DNA from: a virus
Direction: 5' to 3' (one strand)
DNA: 25,522 bases
IMG/VR virus record: IMGVR_UViG_3300008516_001586
Coordinates: 1-25,522 of that record
Position 1 is the first letter of the stretch. Every line of letters starts with the position of its first letter. The notes under the pieces were generated by a model, which was not told the DNA's origin, made no database searches, and saw only the letters and a program-made list of their open reading frames with translations. Made by a program: the position numbers and the translations under genes. Positions 2,271 to 13,179 of the stretch are shown here, in pieces.

Positions 2271-2304
2271 GTACCTAGTTTTGAAAGGCATATCAGCGAC
2301 AAAC

Positions 2305-2314
2305 CTAAATATTA
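2305..2314 (+). promoter_or_regulatory. candidate TATA box for the gene at 2345
   Basis: CTAAATATTA is centred about 35 nt before ATG 2345, which would give a transcript with a very short leader. It resembles the CATAAATAATA box before the capsid operon. It is called only by sequence and spacing. Confidence 0.35.
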
Positions 2315-2344
2315 CTACAACAACTATAAGATTGGGTTAGCAGG

Positions 2345-2650
2345 ATGCCTGAGAAGAATATCTGGGCTGAGAGGGCTGAAAAATGGTTATGGGATTCATG
2401 CGGATATGCGCCTGATATTTCTGTTGAAGAACTTGCGGAGTGGATGAAGAAGGCTGAGAAATACGATGCTTGGCTGATCGATAAAACAGATGGGGCCATA
2501 ATCACGATAAGCCAAGAGAAGTGGCAAGAATGTTTATCAGTATTAAAGAAACTTGAAGCCGTCAAGACATGGTGGAATATGTTCAACCAGTGCATAGACT
2601 CAGAAGCTGTCAAGGATAAACTTGAGGAGATTCTGGAGGATTCGACATAA
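2345..2650 (+). CDS. Trp-rich acidic small protein of unknown function
   Basis: This 101-residue protein has six Trp residues, a predicted all-helical fold, and clusters of acidic and basic residues (VEELAEWMKKAEKYDAW, WQECLSVLKKLEAVKTWW). No signal peptide, membrane segment or known motif is visible. It is first in a small unit after the capsid operon with its own candidate TATA box. GTTAGCAGG provides a weak ribosome site before ATG 2345. Its final codons include GGAGG (2635-2639), which can serve as the Shine-Dalgarno site of the zinc-ribbon frame overlapping its stop. A compact helical regulator or anti-host protein is possible, but nothing in the sequence decides this. Confidence 0.6.
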   Translation: MPEKNIWAERAEKWLWDSCGYAPDISVEELAEWMKKAEKYDAWLIDKTDGAIITISQEKWQECLSVLKKLEAVKTWWNMFNQCIDSEAVKDKLEEILEDST

Positions 2651-2748
2651 TCTGTCCGTTCTGCGGTTACGAGTGGAAGAACCGTGTGGTGAAGCCTAAG
2701 AGGTGTCCCAAGTGTCAGAAGTGGCTACCCCCCTGGAAAGATGACTAA
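2647..2748 (+). CDS. zinc-ribbon miniprotein starting at ATA
   Basis: A 33-codon frame encodes a complete two-knuckle zinc ribbon, CPFCGYEW...RCPKCQKW, with Cys at positions 3, 6, 20 and 23 counted from the ATA codon. It ends in TAA at 2746-2748. This is the archaeal type of small C-P-x-C zinc ribbon. The frame has a stop at 2623-2625 and no ATG, GTG or TTG between that stop and the first Cys. The ATA at 2647 lies 7 nt after a perfect GGAGG (2635-2639) and overlaps the previous stop as ATAA, just like the ATGA overlaps elsewhere in the window. ATA initiation is therefore the simplest reading. A -1 frameshift from the upstream gene is the alternative, but no XXXYYYZ slippery heptamer is seen. 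Likely a nucleic-acid-binding or regulatory miniprotein. Confidence 0.55.
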   Translation: MICPFCGYEWKNRVVKPKRCPKCQKWLPPWKDD

Positions 2749-2773
2749 TAATGTGTCTGAATGACTTCCAAAC

Positions 2774-2813: not shown

Positions 2814-3104
2814 ATGACTGAAAAAAGATATGAGATGCGCTTCGTTCCCTACGACTCTGAAGGCAAGCTAAAGAATTGTGCCCCCCGCCCAGGCACTAAG
2901 GGAGGCCCTGATGATGGCGACATCGTCATGCTTCCCCTTGAGCAGCGCTGGGAGAAGTGGTGGGAGCTTGTAGACTTGGAATCAGTCCCTGAGGAAGAGT
3001 TAGCCAAGGATCAGAAGAAGCGTGACGCTTTCTTGATGGAGGCTCGGGCCGCTGAGGCGGAGCGTGCAAAACAACTTCACCCTGTAGGAGTTCCCACAGG
3101 ATAG
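2814..3104 (+). CDS. small protein, paralogue of the N-terminus of the next gene
   Basis: This 96-residue protein has an N-terminal block KRYEMRFVPYDSEGKLKNCA, then GDIVMLPLEQRWEKWWELVD. That block is repeated in the following gene (KYKMRFVGFDEHGELKPTA, then GEIRMLPLEYAQNFWWELVD). The C-terminal half is a charged helix (EEELAKDQKKRDAFLMEARAAEAERAKQ). The block resembles the small beta-rich domain found in many short phage proteins near head genes, but its function is not established from sequence. The two adjacent copies indicate a tandem duplication followed by different C-terminal additions. A clear TATA-like box lies upstream; the ribosome site (GTGGT) is weak. Confidence 0.6.
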   Translation: MTEKRYEMRFVPYDSEGKLKNCAPRPGTKGGPDDGDIVMLPLEQRWEKWWELVDLESVPEEELAKDQKKRDAFLMEARAAEAERAKQLHPVGVPTG

Positions 3105-3115
3105 GATGGTTCAAG

Positions 3116-3676
3116 ATGGACGAGAGAATGAAATACAAGATGCGCTTCGTAGGCTTCGATGAGCATGGCGAACTCAAGCCCACTGCACCCGGCTACAAGA
3201 AAGGCGAAATCCGGATGCTTCCGCTGGAGTACGCCCAGAACTTTTGGTGGGAGTTGGTTGACCCCATCCCCGACCTTGTGATCCCTGATCTGAGTTACGA
3301 GGACAGCGTCTTCATTGAAGAGGATTTCGTGCCTCCCAAGGACGTTAAGCCTAGAGAAGAGGAATCAGAGCTGGGTTTGCGAGTGCTTGAGACTGATCAG
3401 GCACTTGAGGACGCGGTAGTTGAGTCTTTAGATGAGACTCTGATCGCTAGAGAGGTACTTGAGCCGGTTGACGCCGGGGACATAGCACTGCCTCCTGCTG
3501 ATGAGGATGTGCCTGAGCTGGAAGGGATACCATACGAACAGAGGACCATCAAGAGTCTTAAGCTCTTCATCAAGCAACGTGGCGGAGAGGTGGACTCACA
3601 GTGGAGGAAGGTAGACCTCATCAGGGAAGCTCGGAGGCTCGAAGAATCCTTAAGGATACCCTCCGAGTCTTCATAG
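3116..3676 (+). CDS. paralogue of the previous protein with acidic linker and HeH/SAP-like C-terminus
   Basis: The 186 residues divide into three parts. Residues 1-50 are the duplicated block shared with the preceding gene. Residues about 51-135 are a very acidic, low-complexity linker. Residues about 140-180 are a helix-extended-helix segment (RTIKSLKLFIKQRGGEVDS followed by RKVDLIREARRL). That last part has the layout of SAP/HeH/LEM-like or Rho-N-like domains that bind DNA and occur in phage head and connector proteins. ATG at 3116 follows GGATGGT. The gap to the previous gene is 11 nt, so the two are co-transcribed. A possible role is head completion or a small virion or nucleoid component, which is inference. 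The duplication is directly visible. Confidence 0.6.
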   Translation: MDERMKYKMRFVGFDEHGELKPTAPGYKKGEIRMLPLEYAQNFWWELVDPIPDLVIPDLSYEDSVFIEEDFVPPKDVKPREEESELGLRVLETDQALEDAVVESLDETLIAREVLEPVDAGDIALPPADEDVPELEGIPYEQRTIKSLKLFIKQRGGEVDSQWRKVDLIREARRLEESLRIPSESS

Positions 3677-3725: not shown

Positions 3726-4178
3726 ATGAAACCGTTAAGGGTTTGCAGGATATGTGGTCTGGAGGCACAAACCGAGGATGACCTGAGTAATTTCATACTA
3801 CACAAAGACTCTCTTCATGGTCGACAGAATCTCTGTAAAGAATGCAACAATAAGATGAGTCGAAAAGGCGGGAAATACTTTGAGCAAGCAACTAGAAGAA
3901 CCAAGCGTTGGATCGAGAATAACCCCGATAAATGGGCGGCTATAAAGAAAAAGAGCCGATCGAATCGTATCCGGTTTAGGGGAAAAGAAGTGCGTTTTGA
4001 TGAAGCCCCAAGAACTAATAAGTGCTCTAATTGTGGTAAAGTGTATCCCGATGAGTTAGACCGTAGAACATGCCTACACCATCTGAAATATGATCTAGAC
4101 GACCCTTTAGCCCATACGATAGAATTATGCACCGAGTGTCATGCGAGGCTTCATCGTAAAATGGATCAAACAAGGTAG
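3726..4178 (+). CDS. HNH endonuclease with N-terminal zinc finger
   Basis: This 150-residue protein has two metal-binding regions. At the N-terminus CRICG (residues 7-11) pairs with a later CKECN, forming a treble-clef-like finger common in phage HNH proteins. The C-terminus is an HNH/McrA-type nuclease core: CSNCGKVYP, then CLHHLKYDLDDPLAH (H118, H119), then ELCTECHARLH. Free-standing nucleases of this kind are usually homing endonucleases that cut alleles lacking them. The gene lies exactly between the small head-proximal genes and the glycan island. It is more AT-rich than its neighbours and has its own TATA box with no ribosome site, all consistent with a mobile gene. Whether it cuts DNA, and where, is not visible. 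Confidence 0.85.
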   Translation: MKPLRVCRICGLEAQTEDDLSNFILHKDSLHGRQNLCKECNNKMSRKGGKYFEQATRRTKRWIENNPDKWAAIKKKSRSNRIRFRGKEVRFDEAPRTNKCSNCGKVYPDELDRRTCLHHLKYDLDDPLAHTIELCTECHARLHRKMDQTR

Positions 4179-4185
4179 TAAATCC

Positions 4186-4905
4186 ATGTCCAAAACGAAA
4201 CAACTTAAAGATAACCTTCGAGTATTTGTTGGCGTCCCTTTTCTCGGGACGGGGGCTCGTTGCGAGTCTTTCATCCCCAAGGCTATCAGTTCGATAGAGA
4301 CTCAGAGGACAGGCATCAGGATGCTCTCTCCATGGGTCACCTCCCCTGCCTCCATGAGGGGAAGCCAGAGGGATCTCGTTGCTGCTAAGCTGAATGACAT
4401 CGTCGACAGATTCCTTAAGACGGATTGCACCCATGTATGGCTTGTGAACGCCGACTGCGAGTTACCGCCGGATGCGCTTGAGAAATTGATCCGCCTTGAT
4501 GTTGATATTGCCAGCGGTGTGTCTCCTACGCATAGTGACTGGAACGAGACGACTGCTGCTTGGGAGATTCTAGGGGGAGGACTCAGGTTCTACCGCCGGA
4601 TGGATTTGGAGGATAAGGTCGTTGGCGAGAATGAGGTTGTCACGACAGGCAACTTCTGTACCTTGATTAAAAGGCGTGCTCTTCTTCAATATTCACCACA
4701 CCATGAACCTTTGAAGTATCAGATAATGAGGGAGCGGCAATATATTTACGGTCCAGAACTCCAGTTCTTTATAGACGCCCAGAAGATGGGGTTCTCCGTT
4801 CGGATTCATGGGGGAGTAATGTGTGGTCATCTCCCTGAGTGGCCTCTATCCTATGAGGGACATGAGGACACTCTATTCAAGAAGATAAGGGGATTGAAGT
4901 CATGA
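4186..4905 (+). CDS. GT-A fold glycosyltransferase (GT2-like)
   Basis: This 239-residue protein starts the glycan island. RVFVGVPFLGTGARC is the first strand and loop of a nucleotide-binding GT-A fold. CTHVWLVNADCELPPDALEKLI holds the metal/nucleotide region with an NAD(90)C variant of the DxD motif. VTTGNFCTLIKRRAL and YGPELQFFIDAQKMGFSVRIHGGVMCGH are the acceptor-side strands and the terminal His seen in this family. ATG 4186 is preferred over the in-frame ATG 4141, because the latter would overlap the HNH gene by 38 nt and adds residues unlike the family start. It overlaps the next glycosyltransferase by ATGA. It probably transfers a sugar from a nucleotide donor; donor and acceptor are unknown. 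Confidence 0.8.
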   Translation: MSKTKQLKDNLRVFVGVPFLGTGARCESFIPKAISSIETQRTGIRMLSPWVTSPASMRGSQRDLVAAKLNDIVDRFLKTDCTHVWLVNADCELPPDALEKLIRLDVDIASGVSPTHSDWNETTAAWEILGGGLRFYRRMDLEDKVVGENEVVTTGNFCTLIKRRALLQYSPHHEPLKYQIMRERQYIYGPELQFFIDAQKMGFSVRIHGGVMCGHLPEWPLSYEGHEDTLFKKIRGLKS

Positions 4906-5708
4906 ATACCCCTGAGGTAGGGGTTCTCGTTGCGACGCTGGGGCGACCCTACTATATCGATCAGGTTATGAGAGCAATCTTCAGAACCAAAATTCCTCTG
5001 AAAGTCCGCTTGGTCAACCAAGGTGACACGAGTCCCAAACAGATGGAAGCTCTGAAGGGGTGGCGGGGCAGATGGGATGTAGAGATAGTTGACAATCCAG
5101 AGCCACGGAAACTCTCAGAGGTCAGAACAGAGGCGATGCAGGCCTTCAAAAGAAGATACACGTATATGGTGACCCTTGACGATGACATCTTCCCACACAT
5201 TGGAAGCATTGAAGCCCTGATCTGGGCATTAAAGAAAAACCCACAGTACCACGCCATAGCAGGCGGCATCATCCAGAAAGGCATGAACCGAATGCTTGGC
5301 GGCTACATAACCCACGAAGAGGGTGAAACACAGCACCATGTTCTTCCCTTGATAAAGCAAACTGCGGAGGTACACTTCGTATCCTCAGGCTTCACAGCCT
5401 TCAGACTAGACCCGCTTATCCCATACGACACAGAATACGAGTTTGGATGGAACGATTGGGATTGGAGCCAAGAGATAAAGAAGGCGGGGCTTCGGATGGC
5501 TGTCTGCGGAGACGCCATGGCCCACCATAAATACTTAGTCACCTCTAAAGGCATAATACCCTGTTATGACAGCGTCGAGTATTATCGACTGCGTCAAAAT
5601 ACTGAGCGTCATAAAAGATCAGCTGACAGATTCAAAAAGAAGTGGGGCTTCAAACCAGCTCAGCCAAAACTATGGGATAAACCTATTCTCAAGGCACTCC
5701 CCCAATGA
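4902..5708 (+). CDS. glycosyltransferase family 2-like (copy A of a pair)
   Basis: This 268-residue GT-A enzyme has VGVLVATLGRP at the N-terminus (first Rossmann strand), PLKVRLVNQGDTSPKQM, and the metal-binding TLDDDIFP with D93-D95. An acceptor-binding GFTAFRLDPLIPYDTEYEFGW comes next, then NDWDWSQEIKKAGLRMAVCGDAMAHHK. It ends in a basic FKKKWGFK segment. The same framework, at the same positions, recurs in the gene at 6535, so the two are paralogues separated by another transferase. The start overlaps the previous stop as ATGA, with GGGG upstream. It is expected to add one sugar in a short virus-encoded glycan. Specificity cannot be read from the sequence. Confidence 0.85.
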   Translation: MNTPEVGVLVATLGRPYYIDQVMRAIFRTKIPLKVRLVNQGDTSPKQMEALKGWRGRWDVEIVDNPEPRKLSEVRTEAMQAFKRRYTYMVTLDDDIFPHIGSIEALIWALKKNPQYHAIAGGIIQKGMNRMLGGYITHEEGETQHHVLPLIKQTAEVHFVSSGFTAFRLDPLIPYDTEYEFGWNDWDWSQEIKKAGLRMAVCGDAMAHHKYLVTSKGIIPCYDSVEYYRLRQNTERHKRSADRFKKKWGFKPAQPKLWDKPILKALPQ

Positions 5709-6538
5709 AGAGTCTCAATCATTCCGAGGCCCCGTATGTTGAGATAGTTCGTGTTCAGAAGATAGAGTCGCCTATCTATTCCGTCGTCGTGCCAGTTGGT
5801 AACCTTTACGGCGCGAGGGTGAGGAACTGCCTGAGGAGCCTTCAGCTTCAAACCGTGGGAAGCCTTGAGGTAATCGTGGTTGACTACGGCTCCACTCCTG
5901 AGAATCACAGACAGTTGATGGTGACGCTTGAGCCTTTCGACTGCACCGTGTTCCGCTTCCCAACCAAGGACGCATGGAGTATGTCACTCTCGCGGAACAT
6001 TGGGCTGAGGAGGGCGAAAGGCGAATACGTTGCGACATTAGACGCAGACTGCGTGTTGATGCCCATAGTTCTTAAATTCACCCTCAACATTCACAGGGAG
6101 ACGCCTCGGCTGATCATGATGGCACCATACTATTTAGACGAAAACGTTGAGATTGAATACATAAATCTACCTAGAGACTATGAGAGGCTGAGAGCTGGTA
6201 ACCCGAGGTATCTCAAAAGAAGTATCGGAGGGTTCATGAGTGCGCCGCGAAGCTGGTGGCTGAAGGTGAGGGGATTCGATGAGAGGATGATGATGTATGG
6301 CTGTGAGGATGGAGACCTATGTAGACGAGCTGAGATAGACCCTGAAATAGAGAACTACGTAATAGAGGAAAACTGTGCGCCTGACATAAGGTTCTACCAT
6401 CAGTGGCATCCTCCGATGAGGCTACACAAAGCAATTGGGGAGGAGGCCGTGAACCGTCAATACGAGATAAATCGGCTGATCAAGAAAAGCGAGTATTCAA
6501 TCAGGCGGAATACTGGTGATTGGGGTATGATGGTGTGA
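5705..6538 (+). CDS. glycosyltransferase family 2, chondroitin-synthase/GalNAc-T-like layout
   Basis: The 277 residues show YSVVVPVGNLYGARVRNCLRSL (first strand and helix of GT2) and LEVIVVDYGSTPENH (nucleotide-binding loop). SLSRNIGLRRAKGEYVATLDADC follows, with a true DxD at D113-D115. IGGFMSAPRSWWLKVRGFDE comes next, then MYGCEDGDLCRRAE, the ED catalytic region. HQWHPP near the end resembles the His of the C-terminal galactosyltransferase-like segment. This is the most classical GT2 of the island and all key motifs are present. ATG 5705 overlaps the preceding TGA (ATGA) without a clear ribosome site, so translational coupling is likely. It probably acts in sequence with its three GT-A neighbours. 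Confidence 0.87.
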   Translation: MKSLNHSEAPYVEIVRVQKIESPIYSVVVPVGNLYGARVRNCLRSLQLQTVGSLEVIVVDYGSTPENHRQLMVTLEPFDCTVFRFPTKDAWSMSLSRNIGLRRAKGEYVATLDADCVLMPIVLKFTLNIHRETPRLIMMAPYYLDENVEIEYINLPRDYERLRAGNPRYLKRSIGGFMSAPRSWWLKVRGFDERMMMYGCEDGDLCRRAEIDPEIENYVIEENCAPDIRFYHQWHPPMRLHKAIGEEAVNRQYEINRLIKKSEYSIRRNTGDWGMMV

Positions 6539-7290
6539 AGCCCAGAGTTGCAGTGGCCGTTCTGACGCTGAAGCGACCCCAGTTCCTAAGCCAGTGCCTC
6601 AGGAGCATTACGAGGACAGAGATCCCTATCAAACTCTTTCTAGTCAACCAGAATGACGAGAGCGAGGAGCAGATGAAGGTAATTAAGGAGTGGCAAGGCA
6701 GGCCAGAGGTGAAATATATACTCAACAAACCTGCGAAGTGGCCTGGAGCAGCTAGAGGCACAGTCTTCACGTTGTCGCACAACATGGGCTATGAATATGT
6801 TGTGACCGTGGATGATGACTGCTGCCTGCTTCCTGGCGCTATAGAGAGCTTAGTAAAGGCGGCGGACTCGCACCCTGAGTTTCATTCCATCTCTGGTTTC
6901 CTCATAGACAAGAGGAGAAGATACATGTTGGGTGGAAGGAAGATCCCACATACATACGGGATCCACTACAGAAACTACGAGTGGATGCCTGGGGTTCACA
7001 AGGCTGACTATGTGAGCAACGGCTTTCGGCTGATAAGGCTGAATCCGCTTGTCATTCCCGACCCGAACTACGAGATCGGTCTAACAGATTGGGATTACGC
7101 CAACAAGTTGGAGGTTCGGGGCCTGAAGATGGCGGTATGTGGCGACGCTGGAGCCTATCACAAGCTCATGAATGTTGATGGACAGATGAAGTGGGTGCCC
7201 AATCCTCCAAGCTACAAGAGAGGGTCCCCTAGTATGACTGAACGGATGAACAACTATTTTATGAAGAAATGGGGCTACAAGGTGAAGTAA
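6535..7290 (+). CDS. glycosyltransferase family 2-like (copy B of a pair)
   Basis: This GT-A enzyme of 251 residues is paralogous to the gene at 4902. VAVAVLTLKRPQFLSQCL aligns with VGVLVATLGRP. IPIKLFLVNQNDESEEQMKV aligns with IPLKVRLVNQGDTSPKQMEA. TVDDDC, GLTDWDYANKLEVRGLKMAV and NYFMKKWGYK also match. GTG at 6535 is chosen: GGGGT (6522-6526) lies 8 nt upstream, it overlaps the previous stop as GTGTGA, and it puts the DDD triad at residues 93-95, exactly as in copy A. An in-frame TTG at 6520 is the alternative. The pair suggests duplication followed by divergence to add different sugars or act on different acceptors. Confidence 0.85.
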   Translation: MKPRVAVAVLTLKRPQFLSQCLRSITRTEIPIKLFLVNQNDESEEQMKVIKEWQGRPEVKYILNKPAKWPGAARGTVFTLSHNMGYEYVVTVDDDCCLLPGAIESLVKAADSHPEFHSISGFLIDKRRRYMLGGRKIPHTYGIHYRNYEWMPGVHKADYVSNGFRLIRLNPLVIPDPNYEIGLTDWDYANKLEVRGLKMAVCGDAGAYHKLMNVDGQMKWVPNPPSYKRGSPSMTERMNNYFMKKWGYKVK

Positions 7291-7845
7291 ATGAAAACAG
7301 ACCTAAAAAATAGGCGTGGAAACCGTTTTCTCGGTCAGAGGATTCAGCATAGCTATGCAGAGATCTCTTTCATAGACCAGGTTCTTACAAAGGAGACATT
7401 CAAGACACTAATCGAGTTCGGGACGGCGAAGGGCGGCTTAAGCCTCCTCTTCGGCCTGCACGCCCTCAGGGTAGGCGGACACGCATATACCTTCGATGTA
7501 TCAATTGAGCCTTGTCGGGATCTTTATGTCAAGCTAAAGCCTATGATACCATTGACCTTTCTAAAGATGGATGTGCTGTCAGACAAGGCGATGAAAATCA
7601 TCCCAAAAATCGTCGGGAGAGGCCGAACCCTGATCTACTGTGACGCACAGAAGAAAAAGGAGTTCAACCTCTACGCGCCGCTCCTCAAGAAGGGAGACGT
7701 GATAATGGCTCACGACAAGGGCACAATAGAGATCCGTTACGCGGACATAGTGGAGACTGTGAACAGGATCGGACTCAAACCGTTCCATCAGGACGCCGCT
7801 GACGAGATGGGAACGATAATATTCAGCTTCATAAAGGAGGAGTAG
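7291..7845 (+). CDS. SAM-dependent methyltransferase, CmcI/cephalosporin-hydroxylase-like
   Basis: This 184-residue Rossmann protein carries LIEFGTAKGGLSLLFGLHAL (G-rich SAM-binding loop from I41) and GGHAYTFDVSIEP (acidic residue after strand 2). RTLIYCDAQKKKEFNLYAPL and KKGDVIMAHDKGT, the strand 4-5 region with a putative metal-binding HD, follow. The layout is that of the CmcI-like family found in glycan and antibiotic loci, where members act as sugar O-methyltransferases. It lies between a glycosyltransferase and an FkbM methyltransferase. ATG 7291 directly follows the previous TAA, with AAGGTGA upstream. Its last codons, AAG GAG GAG TAG, double as the ribosome site of the next gene. O-methylation of a sugar is the likely reaction. 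Confidence 0.7.
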   Translation: MKTDLKNRRGNRFLGQRIQHSYAEISFIDQVLTKETFKTLIEFGTAKGGLSLLFGLHALRVGGHAYTFDVSIEPCRDLYVKLKPMIPLTFLKMDVLSDKAMKIIPKIVGRGRTLIYCDAQKKKEFNLYAPLLKKGDVIMAHDKGTIEIRYADIVETVNRIGLKPFHQDAADEMGTIIFSFIKEE

Positions 7846-7847
7846 GT

Positions 7848-8561
7848 TTGAGGGTTGTGAAAGAGGTGAATGTAGCTGGAAGACGGTTCAAGTTGCACCT
7901 TGACATGGAGGACGCGACCTCCCAGCCTGTAATATTTCAGACGGGACGATGGGAGCCGAGAATCACTGCCTTTCTCTTGGAAAATCTAAAGCAGGACATG
8001 ATCTTCATAGATGTCGGGGCGGCCATCGGCTGGTTCACCATCATAGCCTCGTCGCTGGTCGGTGAAGGAGGAAGGGTGATAGCGTTCGAGCCAGCGCCCA
8101 ATAGATTCAAGACTCTTGTTGAAAATATGATGCTGAACACAGATGGAAACGTTGAGTGCGTTGATAAAGCCGTTTCAAGCGAAAACGGTGAGGCATACAT
8201 AAGCGGAGAAAAATATCCAATGTATTTGTCAAGTTCAGGAAACGGTTTTAAAATTAATGTCCCGATAGACATGGTTACTCTTGACTCGTATCTGAAGATG
8301 AGGGGTGTTGAGAAGGTGGATATGGTGAAGATAGATGTCGAGGGGTCTGAACTCAGGGTGCTGAAAGGTATGGAACAGACGATCAGGAACAGCGGCAAAA
8401 TTAAAATCATCTGTGAGGTTCACCTTCCATATCTAAACAGATACGGGGATAACATAAACCAGCTATTTGAATATACGCAGACAATGGACCTGAGAAAACA
8501 AAGATTAACTGGAGGAAAAACGGCGCAAGCACCGCGCTACCTGTTCTACAAGGAGGAATAG
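7848..8561 (+). CDS. FkbM-family methyltransferase
   Basis: This is a 237-residue class I SAM methyltransferase of the FkbM family. MIFIDVGAAIGWFTIIAS (M51 onward) is motif I with an uninterrupted DVGAxxG. GRVIAFEPAPNRFKTLVENM is motif II with the family's FEP signature. MVTLDSYLK and VDMVKIDVEGSELRVLKGM carry the KIDVEG(x)E hallmark. KIKIICEVH is the final strand. FkbM enzymes O-methylate sugars or polyketides and are typical of glycan clusters. TTG 7848 is the start: AAGGAGG lies 7 nt upstream, in the last codons of the previous gene, and no ATG is suitably placed. The junction to the next gene is a near-exact repeat of the junction at its own start. Confidence 0.9.
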   Translation: MRVVKEVNVAGRRFKLHLDMEDATSQPVIFQTGRWEPRITAFLLENLKQDMIFIDVGAAIGWFTIIASSLVGEGGRVIAFEPAPNRFKTLVENMMLNTDGNVECVDKAVSSENGEAYISGEKYPMYLSSSGNGFKINVPIDMVTLDSYLKMRGVEKVDMVKIDVEGSELRVLKGMEQTIRNSGKIKIICEVHLPYLNRYGDNINQLFEYTQTMDLRKQRLTGGKTAQAPRYLFYKEE

Positions 8562-8563
8562 GT

Positions 8564-9166
8564 TTGAGCAAGAGTACAGCTGAAGAGAAGTGGTGGGAGA
8601 ACCACTACTCCAGAGGCGGGCACAGCGGTCCTGGCTCCATCGGAGAACACCGTAAATGGAAATGGGGAATTATAGAGGAATATGTCTCTGAGGTGAACCA
8701 TGTAATAGATGTGGGCTGCGGGGATCTCACCTTCTGGGAAGACCACGACTGTAACGACTACATAGGCATAGATTTCTCAAACACAATCATAGAGAGGGAT
8801 AGGAAGGAGAGACCCCATTGGAAGTTCATCCTACACCACGCCGAGGACAGGATAGACGGGCTACACGCCCCAGTAATCTTCTGCTTCGACGTTCTTATCC
8901 ACCAGATGGATGAAGAGGTTTTCATGAAGATACTGGAGAACCTCTGCTACTACTCCACAGACCTCATACTTCTATACAACTGGGTCAAACCCAAACCTGG
9001 ACGCGGAGTGACAGACGGCGTAATCCATTACTTCCGTCCCCTTGAAAAACATATGAACATCTTCAAGAGAGGCGGATTCAAACTCATCGATAGGAGAGAC
9101 GGAGACCCAGGGGATCATAACAAGCGGGGCGCCATATACATCTTCAAACGGGAGAAAAGGAGATGA
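8564..9166 (+). CDS. class I SAM-dependent methyltransferase
   Basis: This 200-residue protein has an aromatic N-terminus (AEEKWWENHYSRGGHSG) often seen in small-molecule methyltransferases. VIDVGCGDLTFWED (V47 onward) is motif I, YIGIDFSNTIIERD is motif II, and HHAEDRIDGL precedes CFDVLIHQMDEEVFMKIL. KPGRGVTDGVIHYFRPLEKH and FKRGGFKLIDRRD are the late strands. The VIHYFRP segment after a flexible loop probably shapes the substrate site. TTG 8564 is the start, with AAGGAGGA 6-7 nt upstream inside the previous gene. It overlaps the following GT-B gene by 4 nt. A sugar or lipid-carrier acceptor is likely, given the context. The exact methyl position is unknown. Confidence 0.85.
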   Translation: MSKSTAEEKWWENHYSRGGHSGPGSIGEHRKWKWGIIEEYVSEVNHVIDVGCGDLTFWEDHDCNDYIGIDFSNTIIERDRKERPHWKFILHHAEDRIDGLHAPVIFCFDVLIHQMDEEVFMKILENLCYYSTDLILLYNWVKPKPGRGVTDGVIHYFRPLEKHMNIFKRGGFKLIDRRDGDPGDHNKRGAIYIFKREKRR

Positions 9167-10041
9167 AAATTGCACTCTTATGCCCTGAAGGAAGACGGCG
9201 GTGGGCTTTCACCTTCATCATGGAGGACTTTAAAAAATTCGTTGATAGACCTGACTATATCTTTGATCTGATCAACACCCAGAAGATCACAGAGAACCTC
9301 AGGGAATACGACTGGATAATCAGCCCACTGCTCGGGCAGGCCACATATGACACCGAGCTCTTTAAGGAGGAAATCCGCCCCCACTTCATCGCTTGGCTTG
9401 GAGGGATGAAGACCTACGGCAGGATAAAGGATTGGAGCATCTTCAAATATGTGTTCGCTCAGTCCAGTTCCCTGATCCACGACAAACTCAGGGACACGAC
9501 CTTCTTCATCAGACCCACAGGCGTAGACATAAACATGTTCCGACCCCTGAATATCCAGAAGAAACACTTCGCTGGAATCACTGGGAGAGCCATACCCCAG
9601 GATAACTGGAAAAGTAGGTCGGAGCGGATAGATACGTGGTTCAGCCCCATCTGTAGGTATGCGAATGTTTCAAGCATTATCTTGGATACGAGAGGCAACT
9701 ACGCTGTTCCACGTGAGCAGATGCCAAGGCGATACAACCAATTACACACCTATCTATGCACATTCATGTCGGCTGGGGGGCCACTGACGCTTCTTGAAGC
9801 CGCAAGCTGTGGCTTGCCCATCATCTCAACGGATGTAGGGTATGTCAGGGATGGTCTGATAGATGGCAATGGATTCATCTGCAACACTAGGAAGGAGTTT
9901 ATTGACGCGCTCATCTACCTGAAGGAGAACCCAGATAAAAAGCTTAGAATGGGGGAGAGAAGCAGGGAGCTTGTGCTTAAGAACTGGACTTGGGAGAAGA
10001 GAGCGGAGGAATGGATCACAACCATTGAGGAGCTGAGTTGA
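9163..10041 (+). CDS. GT-B fold glycosyltransferase, family 4-like
   Basis: The 292 residues form a compact two-domain GT-B enzyme. MKIALLCPEG is the first strand. KYVFAQSSSLIHDKL and FIRPTGVDINMFRPLN (P118-T119-G120 region) are the hinge signature common to GT4 enzymes. SAGGPLTLLEAASCGLPIIS (P207, E212), continuing to STDVGYVRDGLIDGNGFI, is the donor-nucleotide site with the first Glu of the EX7E motif. It is shorter than usual GT4 enzymes (about 350-400 residues), mostly in the N-terminal acceptor domain. ATG 9163 overlaps the previous TGA as ATGA. As a retaining enzyme it would complement the inverting-type GT-A enzymes upstream. Confidence 0.85.
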   Translation: MKIALLCPEGRRRWAFTFIMEDFKKFVDRPDYIFDLINTQKITENLREYDWIISPLLGQATYDTELFKEEIRPHFIAWLGGMKTYGRIKDWSIFKYVFAQSSSLIHDKLRDTTFFIRPTGVDINMFRPLNIQKKHFAGITGRAIPQDNWKSRSERIDTWFSPICRYANVSSIILDTRGNYAVPREQMPRRYNQLHTYLCTFMSAGGPLTLLEAASCGLPIISTDVGYVRDGLIDGNGFICNTRKEFIDALIYLKENPDKKLRMGERSRELVLKNWTWEKRAEEWITTIEELS

Positions 10042-10058
10042 GTGCGCGTGCATAACCA

Positions 10059-10856
10059 ATGATAAAAAAGCAGAACATCCAAGGGGAAACTTGGGATAAT
10101 TTGATAATATTGGATGCATGTAGATTTGACTTTTTTGAGAAAATATATAAAGAGTATATGGATGGAGAGCTAGAAAAAAGAATTAGTAAAGGATCAAATA
10201 CAGGTGAATGGCTTGCGAAAACATTTCCAGATAAATATGACTATACTTACATTTCCGCAAATCCATATATAAATAGTTACGGAGTTTCTCTCAATAGATG
10301 TCGCCCAGAATATAGAAACTATTCATGGAACGCAGTTGAACATTTCTCAAATATTATAGATGTATGGGAATTTGGATGGAAAGAAGAAGTGGGCACAATT
10401 CACCCAAAGGAAGTAAACAAGGCTTATTTATCAAATAAAGATAATAATAAAACGATAATACATTATGTTCAACCTCATTACCCATATTTATCTTACGGAG
10501 GGGTTTTTGGAATAAGAAACAAGGTAAACATCTTAAAAGATGAACCTATCAACTATAAACAAAAACTGAAAAAGAATAAATTAGTTGAGCCTATTAAAAA
10601 GCTACCTAGATTAAAGAAAATTCAAGTAGAAATTGGACTAGATAAACTATTTTACTATTATGAAGATAACTTAAGAACCGTGTTGAAACATGTTTCCCAC
10701 TTAACAGCCTACCTGAATGGAACGACAATAATAACAGCAGACCATGGAGAAGCTTTTGGCGAAGAAGGTGTTTGGGAACACCCTATAGAAACACATATCC
10801 CTGTATTAATAGAAGTTCCATGGTTAGCCATACATAGTAAAAGAGTTGATAGATGA
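10059..10856 (+). CDS. sulfatase/alkaline-phosphatase-superfamily protein, AT-rich outlier
   Basis: This 265-residue protein has NLIILDACRFDFFE near its N-terminus (D19, C21, D24) and ITADHGEAFGEEGVWEHP near the end (D228, H229, E231). These are the two metal-site halves of sulfatase-fold hydrolases and transferases. The DACRxD form is common in archaeal surface-polysaccharide loci. YISANPYINSYGV and IIHYVQPHYPYLSYG are further family-like segments. The classic CxPxR formylglycine motif is absent, so a phosphatase or phospho(sugar) transferase role is as possible as a sulfatase. No signal peptide or membrane segment is seen. The gene is strikingly AT-rich against both neighbours and lacks a clear ribosome site, suggesting recent acquisition. 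ATG 10059 is the first Met of the frame. Confidence 0.75.
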   Translation: MIKKQNIQGETWDNLIILDACRFDFFEKIYKEYMDGELEKRISKGSNTGEWLAKTFPDKYDYTYISANPYINSYGVSLNRCRPEYRNYSWNAVEHFSNIIDVWEFGWKEEVGTIHPKEVNKAYLSNKDNNKTIIHYVQPHYPYLSYGGVFGIRNKVNILKDEPINYKQKLKKNKLVEPIKKLPRLKKIQVEIGLDKLFYYYEDNLRTVLKHVSHLTAYLNGTTIITADHGEAFGEEGVWEHPIETHIPVLIEVPWLAIHSKRVDR

Positions 10857-11429
10857 ATGAGCAAACAAAAATCTCCACGGGCCCAAGACCTTGCCGCCGC
10901 TATCGTCGAGACACAGCACCTCAAAGGCGACTTTGCGGAGGCAGGAGTATATACTGGCAACAGCGCACAAGTAATCTGTGCAGCAAAGGGAAACAAACCC
11001 CTCCACCTATTCGACACGTTTAAGGGATTACCTGGATCACTGTTTGAACCTATTGATTCATCCACTGAGGTGGCTCGATTTCATGTAAAGCCGGGCATGT
11101 ATGCGGCTTCCTTAGAGAGAGTTAAGGAGAGACTAAAACACTACCCGAACGTTTTTTATTATCCAGGTCTATTCCCAAGCACCGCAAAACCTCTGAGACA
11201 TAAGACCTTCGCTTTTGTCAATCTAGACCTAGACCTTTACAGATCCACGCTTGATGCCTTGAATTTTTTCTATCCTCGGTTGAATATAGGTGGAATTATC
11301 ATATCTCATAATTACACGAACCTGCCAGGCGTTAAAAAGGCGTTTGACGAGTTTTTCAAAGCCAAACCCGAGAAAATAAAGATAATAAGTGACTCTCAAT
11401 GTATAATCAAAAAATTGGGGGGAAGTTGA
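10857..11429 (+). CDS. TylF/MycF-family methyltransferase homologue
   Basis: The 190 residues fit macrocin-O-methyltransferase (TylF) relatives: GDFAEAGVYTGNSAQVICAA (SAM loop), KPLHLFDTFKGLP (the FDTFxGLP hallmark), and FPSTAKPLRHKTFAFVNLDL followed by DLYRSTLDALNFFYPRLNIGG. KKAFDEFF lies near the end. Known members O-methylate deoxysugars and use Mg2+ bound by Asp residues, including the DD of an IIIDDYG segment. Here that segment reads IIISHNYT, with H151-N152 in place of the two Asp. The enzyme may therefore use a different metal arrangement or be inactive. ATG 10857 directly abuts the previous TGA. GC content returns to the island level here, in sharp contrast to the sulfatase-like gene just before. 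Confidence 0.8.
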   Translation: MSKQKSPRAQDLAAAIVETQHLKGDFAEAGVYTGNSAQVICAAKGNKPLHLFDTFKGLPGSLFEPIDSSTEVARFHVKPGMYAASLERVKERLKHYPNVFYYPGLFPSTAKPLRHKTFAFVNLDLDLYRSTLDALNFFYPRLNIGGIIISHNYTNLPGVKKAFDEFFKAKPEKIKIISDSQCIIKKLGGS

Positions 11430-12416
11430 ATAAGAATCCTATTTTTAACTCGGAACGGGGAGGGCTGTGTGGGTGCTCCTAGCGCTTACCACGGATTTGA
11501 GATGGCCGTCGCCAAAACCGCTGACTGCCTTTGGGCAGGAAAAGGGTGGTCGCTCCATAGAGAGGGAGAAGAGATGAATGAGACGGTTGAAAGGCTATAT
11601 GGAGGCGATCCACCTGACTGGGTGGTTGACAACAAAAATGATAGCTTCAAAACCCCGAAGCGGAGAGATTACCGGGTATGCGTGTTCATCAGTGATCTGC
11701 ATGGAAAATACAACTGGAGAATCAGAAACGCGACGGGATTCATAGAACTCCTAAACAAGGCTGGATATGACACCGTTTTCATGAAGTACATGTACGTGCA
11801 TGGCGTTCCCGAGGTAGAAAACATATACCTCCAGTCGCTTGAGGCTAAGCCGCTGTTCCTCCCATGGAGCATTGATCCAGAATACTACCGACCCCTGAAG
11901 AAGACGATTGATACATGTTTCCTCGGCGCCATTGGAGGGCACTACTACCCTATGAGACAAGCCATCTACGAAGATCTCCCAGACTTATGCAAGATGCATG
12001 GGTTTGACTATGTGATGAGAACGTCCCCCCCAGGAAAAACTTATCAAAGGAGAGTTGACAAGCTGATTAGGGATCATTACGTGGGGGAAAGATATGCAAA
12101 AGTGCTGGGGCAGAGCAGGGCTCTTATATTCGGCTCTGGTATCCATGTCGGCCCCGTCCAGAAGCATTTTGAAGGAAGGGCATGTGGATGCTTGGTCATG
12201 GTGAACGAGCCGTCCGAGGCCGAGGAACTCGGCTTTGTGGATGGGGTAAATTACGTTAAGATCGGTCTAGGGGATTGGAAGGAGAAGTTGGTTTATTATG
12301 CCAAGCATAGGGAGGAAGCTGAGGAGATCGCATTGAATGGGCGAAGGCTGATCCTAGAGAGGCACACACATGAGATCAGGGCCCGAGAGTTCATGGAGAT
12401 GTTGAAGAATGGTTGA
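11430..12416 (+). CDS. GT-B glycosyltransferase, CgeB-like, starting at ATA
   Basis: From ATA 11430 the frame encodes 328 residues beginning (M)RILFLTRNGEGCVGAPSAY, an unmistakable first strand and loop of a GT-B enzyme. The first conventional start, GTG 11469, would remove that strand. The preceding in-frame codon is the TGA of the upstream gene, and GGGGGGA (11417-11423) lies just before, so ATA is the best start. Further family features are RVCVFISDLHGKYNWRIRN, PLFLPWSIDPEYYRPL (hinge), DTCFLGAIGGHYYPMRQ, and HFEGRACGCLVMVNEPSEAE continuing to GFVDGVNYVKIG (donor site). These match CgeB/DUF3880-like proteins of surface-glycan loci. It overlaps the next gene by 8 nt. The product is likely cytosolic. 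Confidence 0.8.
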   Translation: MRILFLTRNGEGCVGAPSAYHGFEMAVAKTADCLWAGKGWSLHREGEEMNETVERLYGGDPPDWVVDNKNDSFKTPKRRDYRVCVFISDLHGKYNWRIRNATGFIELLNKAGYDTVFMKYMYVHGVPEVENIYLQSLEAKPLFLPWSIDPEYYRPLKKTIDTCFLGAIGGHYYPMRQAIYEDLPDLCKMHGFDYVMRTSPPGKTYQRRVDKLIRDHYVGERYAKVLGQSRALIFGSGIHVGPVQKHFEGRACGCLVMVNEPSEAEELGFVDGVNYVKIGLGDWKEKLVYYAKHREEAEEIALNGRRLILERHTHEIRAREFMEMLKNG

Positions 12417-13179
12417 CCCAGAATTTGGAAGGGATGTGAAGATAGGGAGGAATGTCACGATCAATGTCACGGAGCACATCAGCATAGGGGACAGGTCCGT
12501 GATCAACGACGGCGCCATCATTGAGGGAAGACATATCGATATAGGACGCGAGGCTTGGCTCGACAAGTGCGCGTATATAGGCGGGGGAAGCTGCTTTGAT
12601 TTGCAGTCGAAGCTCATAGCTGGCGATTGGCTTCATATGGGTAAAGGCAGCCACATAAACACGGCGAGGGAGGTCATTATCGGCGACGAGTGCGGCGTCG
12701 GCATCGGCACCAAAATCTTCACCCACGGAGCATACCTGTCAGCCTACGAGGGGTTCCCCGTCACGTTCAAGAAGGTCTCCATCGGGGACAGGGTTTGGCT
12801 TCCCCACGCTTGGGTCAACCCTGGCGTTCACATAGGAAGTGATGTGGTGGTGGCGGCGATGAGCCTAGTGAACAGGGACCTGCCAGCGGGCTGCCTCGCC
12901 GGAGGCATACCCGCCAAGGTTCTGAAGGAGAATGTCTACCCTAAAAAGCTGACACTGAGAGAGAAGACCCTGTTTGTGGACCGCATAGCCGCGTATCTTC
13001 AGCTCCCTTTCCGGCTTGACAAGGGGGAAATCAGGTTCAAGGACACCATCTTCAACATGGAGGAGAGAACCATCGAGGGCCCCTCCACCGAGGAGACGGA
13101 GAGGATCAAGAATCAGCTACGCAGACACGGCGTCCGGTTCCGGTTCTACGCGGACGAAGGAGAGTATCGGCCTTGGTAG
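12409..13179 (+). CDS. left-handed beta-helix acyltransferase (hexapeptide repeat)
   Basis: The 256 residues open with repeated [LIV]Gxx hexapeptides (VKIGRNVTINVTEHISIG, VIIGDECGVGIG, VSIGDRVWLPHAWVN, VHIGSDVVVAAM) that build a left-handed beta-helix. GIPAKVL, the typical end of the CoA-binding coil, follows. A loop FTHGAYLSAYEGFPVTF carries the likely catalytic His, as in galactoside/maltose-type O-acetyltransferases. The C-terminal 80 residues are helical and charged, with no recognised fold. A sugar O- or N-acetyltransferase is the expected function, paired with the deacetylase whose remains and restart follow. ATG 12409 lies inside the end of the previous gene. The 3' end overlaps the remnant PIG-L start at 13173. 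Confidence 0.85.
   Translation: MVDPEFGRDVKIGRNVTINVTEHISIGDRSVINDGAIIEGRHIDIGREAWLDKCAYIGGGSCFDLQSKLIAGDWLHMGKGSHINTAREVIIGDECGVGIGTKIFTHGAYLSAYEGFPVTFKKVSIGDRVWLPHAWVNPGVHIGSDVVVAAMSLVNRDLPAGCLAGGIPAKVLKENVYPKKLTLREKTLFVDRIAAYLQLPFRLDKGEIRFKDTIFNMEERTIEGPSTEETERIKNQLRRHGVRFRFYADEGEYRPW

Follow-up and report, generated by a model that had tools for sequence, protein, structure and literature searches.

Overlapping genes can reinitiate translation in both archaea and bacteria, and coupling of this kind has been demonstrated for Haloferax volcanii and E. coli, usually with a Shine–Dalgarno (SD) motif located inside the upstream gene (PMC6728339). A survey of stop-start overlaps presumes NTG start codons (PMC10666635), and a review of archaeal initiation gives AUG, GUG and UUG, with AUA not found in the accessible part of its text (PMC7531240). 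Natural AUA starts are described for infC, ccpN and citZ of S. aureus, where reporters yield about 10% of the AUG level in poor medium and, in the case of ccpN, up to 30% in rich medium (PMC13009471). In E. coli AUA is very weak, reaching 1% of ATG at most (Hecht et al. 2017, as cited in PMC12864459). The open-access literature that we searched yielded, within its accessible text, no natural AUA start in an archaeon or an archaeal virus. An initial annotation of the DNA studied here described ATA initiation as very rarely recorded; rare it is, although AUA has been measured in the three S. aureus genes named above.

In this work we describe a viral gene pair with a putative ATA start at its junction. 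The window, by which we mean the whole stretch of DNA that was analysed, covers an entire IMG/VR record (25,522 bases), and its 38 predicted genes tile the contig without broken frames. A two-gene cassette (approximately 2289–2768, plus strand, edges read by eye) separates the major capsid gene from the gene that follows. Its first gene encodes a 101-aa protein that belongs to no family (2345–2650, plus strand), and its second a zinc ribbon of 33 aa, M/I-ICPFCGYEWKNRVVKPKRCPKCQKWLPPWKDD (2647–2748, plus strand, with Cys codons at 2653, 2662, 2704 and 2713). On the same strand, a GGAGG match to the SD motif lies within the upstream gene at 2635–2639, and 7 nt (2640–2646) separate it from ATA at 2647–2649, the probable start codon of the ribbon. 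The TAA stop of the 101-aa gene (2648–2650, plus strand) overlaps this codon, giving ATAA at 2647–2650.

The closest described arrangement is ATGA-type termination–reinitiation, which, as set out in the accessible text of two sources (PMC6728339, PMC10666635), shares with the window a 4-nt stop/start overlap and an SD inside the upstream gene, here with a spacing of 7. The window differs in that ATAA lies outside the NTG starts that these surveys count, and in that its coupling is a predicted one. The S. aureus genes are alike in having an AUA start in natural genes, together with a strong SD (PMC13009471, accessible text). These are bacterial chromosome genes backed by ribosome-profiling and reporter evidence, whereas ours is a virus gene at a stop-start overlap that is known from its letters only.

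In the ribbon frame, a TGA at 2623–2625 is followed by GGA GAT TCT GGA GGA TTC GAC ATA ATC TGT. Frame 2626–2748 has no ATG, GTG or TTG ahead of the first Cys codon at 2653, exactly as the initial annotation had stated, and its placement of GGAGG 7 nt before the ATA is also correct. Nine codons without a canonical start are not unusual alone; for a conserved gene to have none is unusual. The ATAA had furthermore been likened to ATGA overlaps said to be common in this genome, which is a fair description: the 37 adjacent pairs formed by the 38 predicted genes include four overlaps of the form ATGA, one TTGA and one ATAA. The SD match of the ribbon is good, not exceptional. It ranks tenth among the 38 predicted starts, and 4.75% of 2000 random 17-mers drawn from the window score at least as high. 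Predicted RNA folding at the junction is ordinary, both in the window (z -1.11) and in a close relative, L062 (z 1.10), and the two have no structure in common.

Is the ribbon a gene at all? Several lines of comparison indicate that it is real, conserved and stand-alone, in agreement with the initial annotation, which had proposed a zinc-ribbon gene. The DNA pattern for CPxCGYxWx2Rx3Px2CPxC has one match in the window and none in 100 shuffles, and it matches 10 stretches among the viral contigs and 17 among the genome contigs, of which 15 are archaeal. By this pattern and its short length the window protein is a short CPxCGYxW ribbon of the archaeal type. Its identity is 81% to L062 (over 31 residues), 74% to L023, 71% to L018, 68% to L030 and 65% to L006, and all five of these closest relatives end in WL.PWK, as the window ribbon does. 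With L009 added, the set is alike in CPxCGYxW...PK.CPxC at 55–81% identity (the first P is K in L062), and all six start with ATG or GTG where the window has ATA. The window retains 17 of the 17 residues that are invariant among the five relatives and has two residues of its own, compared with one to six unique residues in each relative. Against L062 there are 11.0 synonymous differences over 16.0 sites and 7.0 nonsynonymous differences over 74.0 sites (dN about 0.10; dS about 1.9, which is near saturation). Because dN is low against dS and all invariant residues are retained, we conclude that purifying selection acted on the frame at least into the recent past.

The protein would presumably bind zinc. 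Rubredoxin-like zinc ribbons (the PF0610 domain PF23470, structure 2gmg, and NCBIfam NF045720, RCKP) likewise have two Cys knuckles. The window matches to them are weak and fall under the curated cut-offs, and here the ribbon makes up the whole protein. The best score against a curated cut-off is 22.9 bits for UPF0547, where 29 are needed, and NF045720 reaches 21.8 against 45.

The most informative relative is L062 (from IMGVR_UViG_3300009488_002371, 52,411 bases), in which the junction reads TTCTGGAGGAAAGCGAGAAGTGATCTGC, with TTCTGGAGGATTCGACATAATCTGT as its counterpart in the window. The stretch TCTGGAGGA, including the SD, is retained in L062 ahead of a GTG start. The 4-nt overlap is retained too, the upstream TGA and the GTG together giving GTGA where the window has ATAA (GTGATCTGC against ATAATCTGT as read). 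The spacing from SD to start is 10 nt in L062 versus 7 nt in the window. Another pair of loci, L009 and L014, which are identical here, has ATGATCTGC, i.e. ATGATC at the position of ATA ATC, overlapping an upstream TGA; in the longer read, GAATGATCTGC, the upstream ORF terminates at this TGA.

The initial annotation had proposed to compare the homologues, and the comparison supports its choice of ATA. The codon in the ATA slot is a canonical start in all five of the closest relatives (GTG in L062, ATG in L006 and L023, GTG in L018 and L030, with L018 and L030 having additional in-frame starts further upstream). For a wider view we tabulated starts from 61 sources, of which 45 rows were caught by a regular expression and a length filter and 16 were not. 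After six duplicates were removed, 39 distinct loci remained. A genome search in the relatives of L018 had matched 65 of 229 genomes, mostly in weak partial form, and only L032–L035 were used from it. Among the 39 caught loci the window is the sole one without a canonical start ahead of the first Cys. The slot holds ATG in 13, GTG in five and TTG in one of the other 38, a total of 19, and the rest start further upstream. One of these, L008, has ATA in the slot too, but it has a GTG three codons earlier.

We consider it probable that ATA 2647 is the start in use, by way of termination–reinitiation, and that the gene belongs to the ATGA/GTGA coupling type, its start having changed to ATA. Ribosomes would end the 101-aa gene at TAA 2648–2650, be held by GGAGG at 2635–2639 and restart, with initiator Met-tRNA, on the overlapping AUA at 2647. 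This would yield Met-Ile-Cys-Pro..., with the N-terminus of the ATG-started L009. An ATGA or GTGA probably stood at this junction ancestrally, and the direct ancestor may have had either. When two genes overlap as ATGA, a single G serves both the ATG and, as its central base, the upstream TGA, so a change of G to A would give ATAA, which preserves the upstream stop (TGA to TAA) and weakens the downstream start alone. This step is drawn from sequence arithmetic and from the ATGA junction of L009. What the relatives establish about the initial annotation's start is its position; the use of AUA, reinitiation as its driver and a low output are what we infer.

The same G-to-A change could also be read as damage. 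A recent start loss, from ATGA or GTGA to ATAA, would leave the ribbon no longer made and the gene an early pseudogene. One change from ATGA is enough for this and would not affect the upstream gene, and an ATG-to-ATA start mutation is known for nadA, listed among the mutations of an engineered Halobacterium strain (PMC11834397, accessible text). Against this, the frame is intact, with every invariant residue in place and few nonsynonymous changes, and an ATG-to-ATA mutant of E. coli rpoS still made RpoS, lowered only up to 5-fold according to the accessible text (PMC12864459). We regard start loss as rather unlikely.

An error of sequencing or assembly at base 2649, or a minority variant there, would mean that the virus really has ATG, and this we think improbable. 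A single base would be enough and L009 has precisely ATGATC, but the contig, whose predicted genes tile it intact, bears no signs of frequent errors. The junction with ATA is known from a single contig; a pattern search of the contig collection, which may be without near-identical records, found no second copy with either A or G.

The initial annotation was silent on a further near-cognate codon, ATC at 2650, which overlaps the upstream stop by one base (TAATC). Initiation there would give Met-Cys-Pro..., and coupled genes also commonly overlap by a single nucleotide (PMC6728339). Yet ATC lies 10 nt after GGAGG, both L062 and L009 conserve it as second codon, after GTG and ATG respectively, and a canonical codon occupies its slot at just one of the 38 other loci (L019), which has an ATG one codon earlier too. 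A start at ATC is thus very unlikely. Least probable of all is a fusion of the ribbon to the C-terminus of the 101-aa protein, made by a -1 frameshift as that gene ends; a conserved fusion was what the initial annotation had named as evidence against its own reading. In favour of it, the two frames differ by -1, and frameshifting can be stimulated by SD-like sites within a gene. We rejected it, since no X XXY YYZ heptamer was found in the overlap of the window or in that of L062, the proteins encoded upstream of these two ribbons are unrelated, and the ribbons of L006 and L023 stand alone with ATG starts.

Returning to the coupled AUA start, this type of ribbon and this type of overlap are already known and AUA starts are rare but known, making the case a variant of known things. 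We suggest, tentatively, that it may go one step further: an AUA start naturally fixed in an archaeal virus, tolerated by means of a strong-SD reinitiation junction, and serving as a volume control that would keep the ribbon protein well under its upstream partner. To our knowledge, no natural AUA start has been described in an archaeal virus before. Should coupled overlaps tolerate AUA, short genes at such sites will escape gene callers that accept ATG, GTG and TTG alone, and overlap surveys that assume NTG will undercount. The case also lets the relaxing of archaeal start-codon choice by reinitiation be tested directly, since the GTG and ATG that close relatives carry at the same junction are natural controls.

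The cassette as a whole looks like an accessory insert, recently gained or lost. It is absent from G001, the nearest virus by capsid protein (95%), in which the corresponding locus is L002. Upstream similarity to L002 stops at TTTTGAAAGG (window 2279–2288). The capsid match ends at 5879 in L002 and 2191 in the window and the next orthologous gene begins at 6039 and 2814, respectively, so that the capsid gene and its neighbour are 622 nt apart in the window versus about 156 nt in G001. A ribbon profile search of the 55-kb record of G001 found nothing. Ahead of the 101-aa gene, at 2300–2314 on the plus strand, is CAAACCTAAATATTA, a candidate archaeal-type promoter. The 101-aa protein has no relatives in the viral contigs or in seven genomes or records, fits no family of Pfam or NCBIfam, and in PHROG gives only matches at E-values of 0.044 and 0.09.

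The virus is a tailed one. Its capsid gene is of the HK97/encapsulin kind (Linocin_M18, E = 2.8e-11; major head protein in PHROG) and a tail tape-measure gene is also present (PHROG). The host is probably an archaeon, because the ribbon has archaeal relatives and a distant capsid match (25%, E = 7.2e-11) occurs in a Methanosarcinales genome, one of 13 genomes or records searched. Annotated phages searched with the capsid protein, the first 8 kb and the ribbon gave no match, and neither did plasmids searched with the ribbon. Similarity in the tape measure is common to the three viruses with WL.PWK ribbons, i.e. the window, G236 (the virus of L062; 39% over query residues 23–363) and G002 (the virus of L006; 30–37%, in pieces), and G001 had no match to it. 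The genes neighbouring the ribbon differ in each of the three.

Some further observations concern the surroundings of these genes. From 4141 to 13179 the window has glycosyltransferase-, methyltransferase- and acetyltransferase-like genes in a row within the structural region; the names are our reading of the translations, and many of the genes we take for glycosyltransferases. L062 is likewise set among genes of these three kinds. The proteins encoded at 2814–3104 and 3116–3676, for which Pfam, PHROG and NCBIfam searches gave no convincing family, each also match the other's L002 orthologue (28.6% over 70 aa, E = 2.8e-4; 48% over 50 aa, E = 1.5e-7), which suggests a tandem duplication.

TTG is the predicted start of eight of the 38 genes of this virus. 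Two adjacent genes, at 7848 and 8564, are both TTG-started and preceded by nearly the same stretch, AAGGAGGAnTAGGT. Leaders resembling triplet repeats, e.g. GTAGTAGTTGTAGTAGG or TTATTATTACTATTATT, occur in the 45 nt upstream of many ribbon genes, for example in L006 (about 5714–5759), L021, L023, L030, L062 (2180–2205) and L087, and weakly in the window at 2308–2328. The mean lag-3 identity upstream of ribbon genes is 0.36 (n = 46 distinct stretches), compared with 0.284 (sd 0.076) for random stretches from the same loci.
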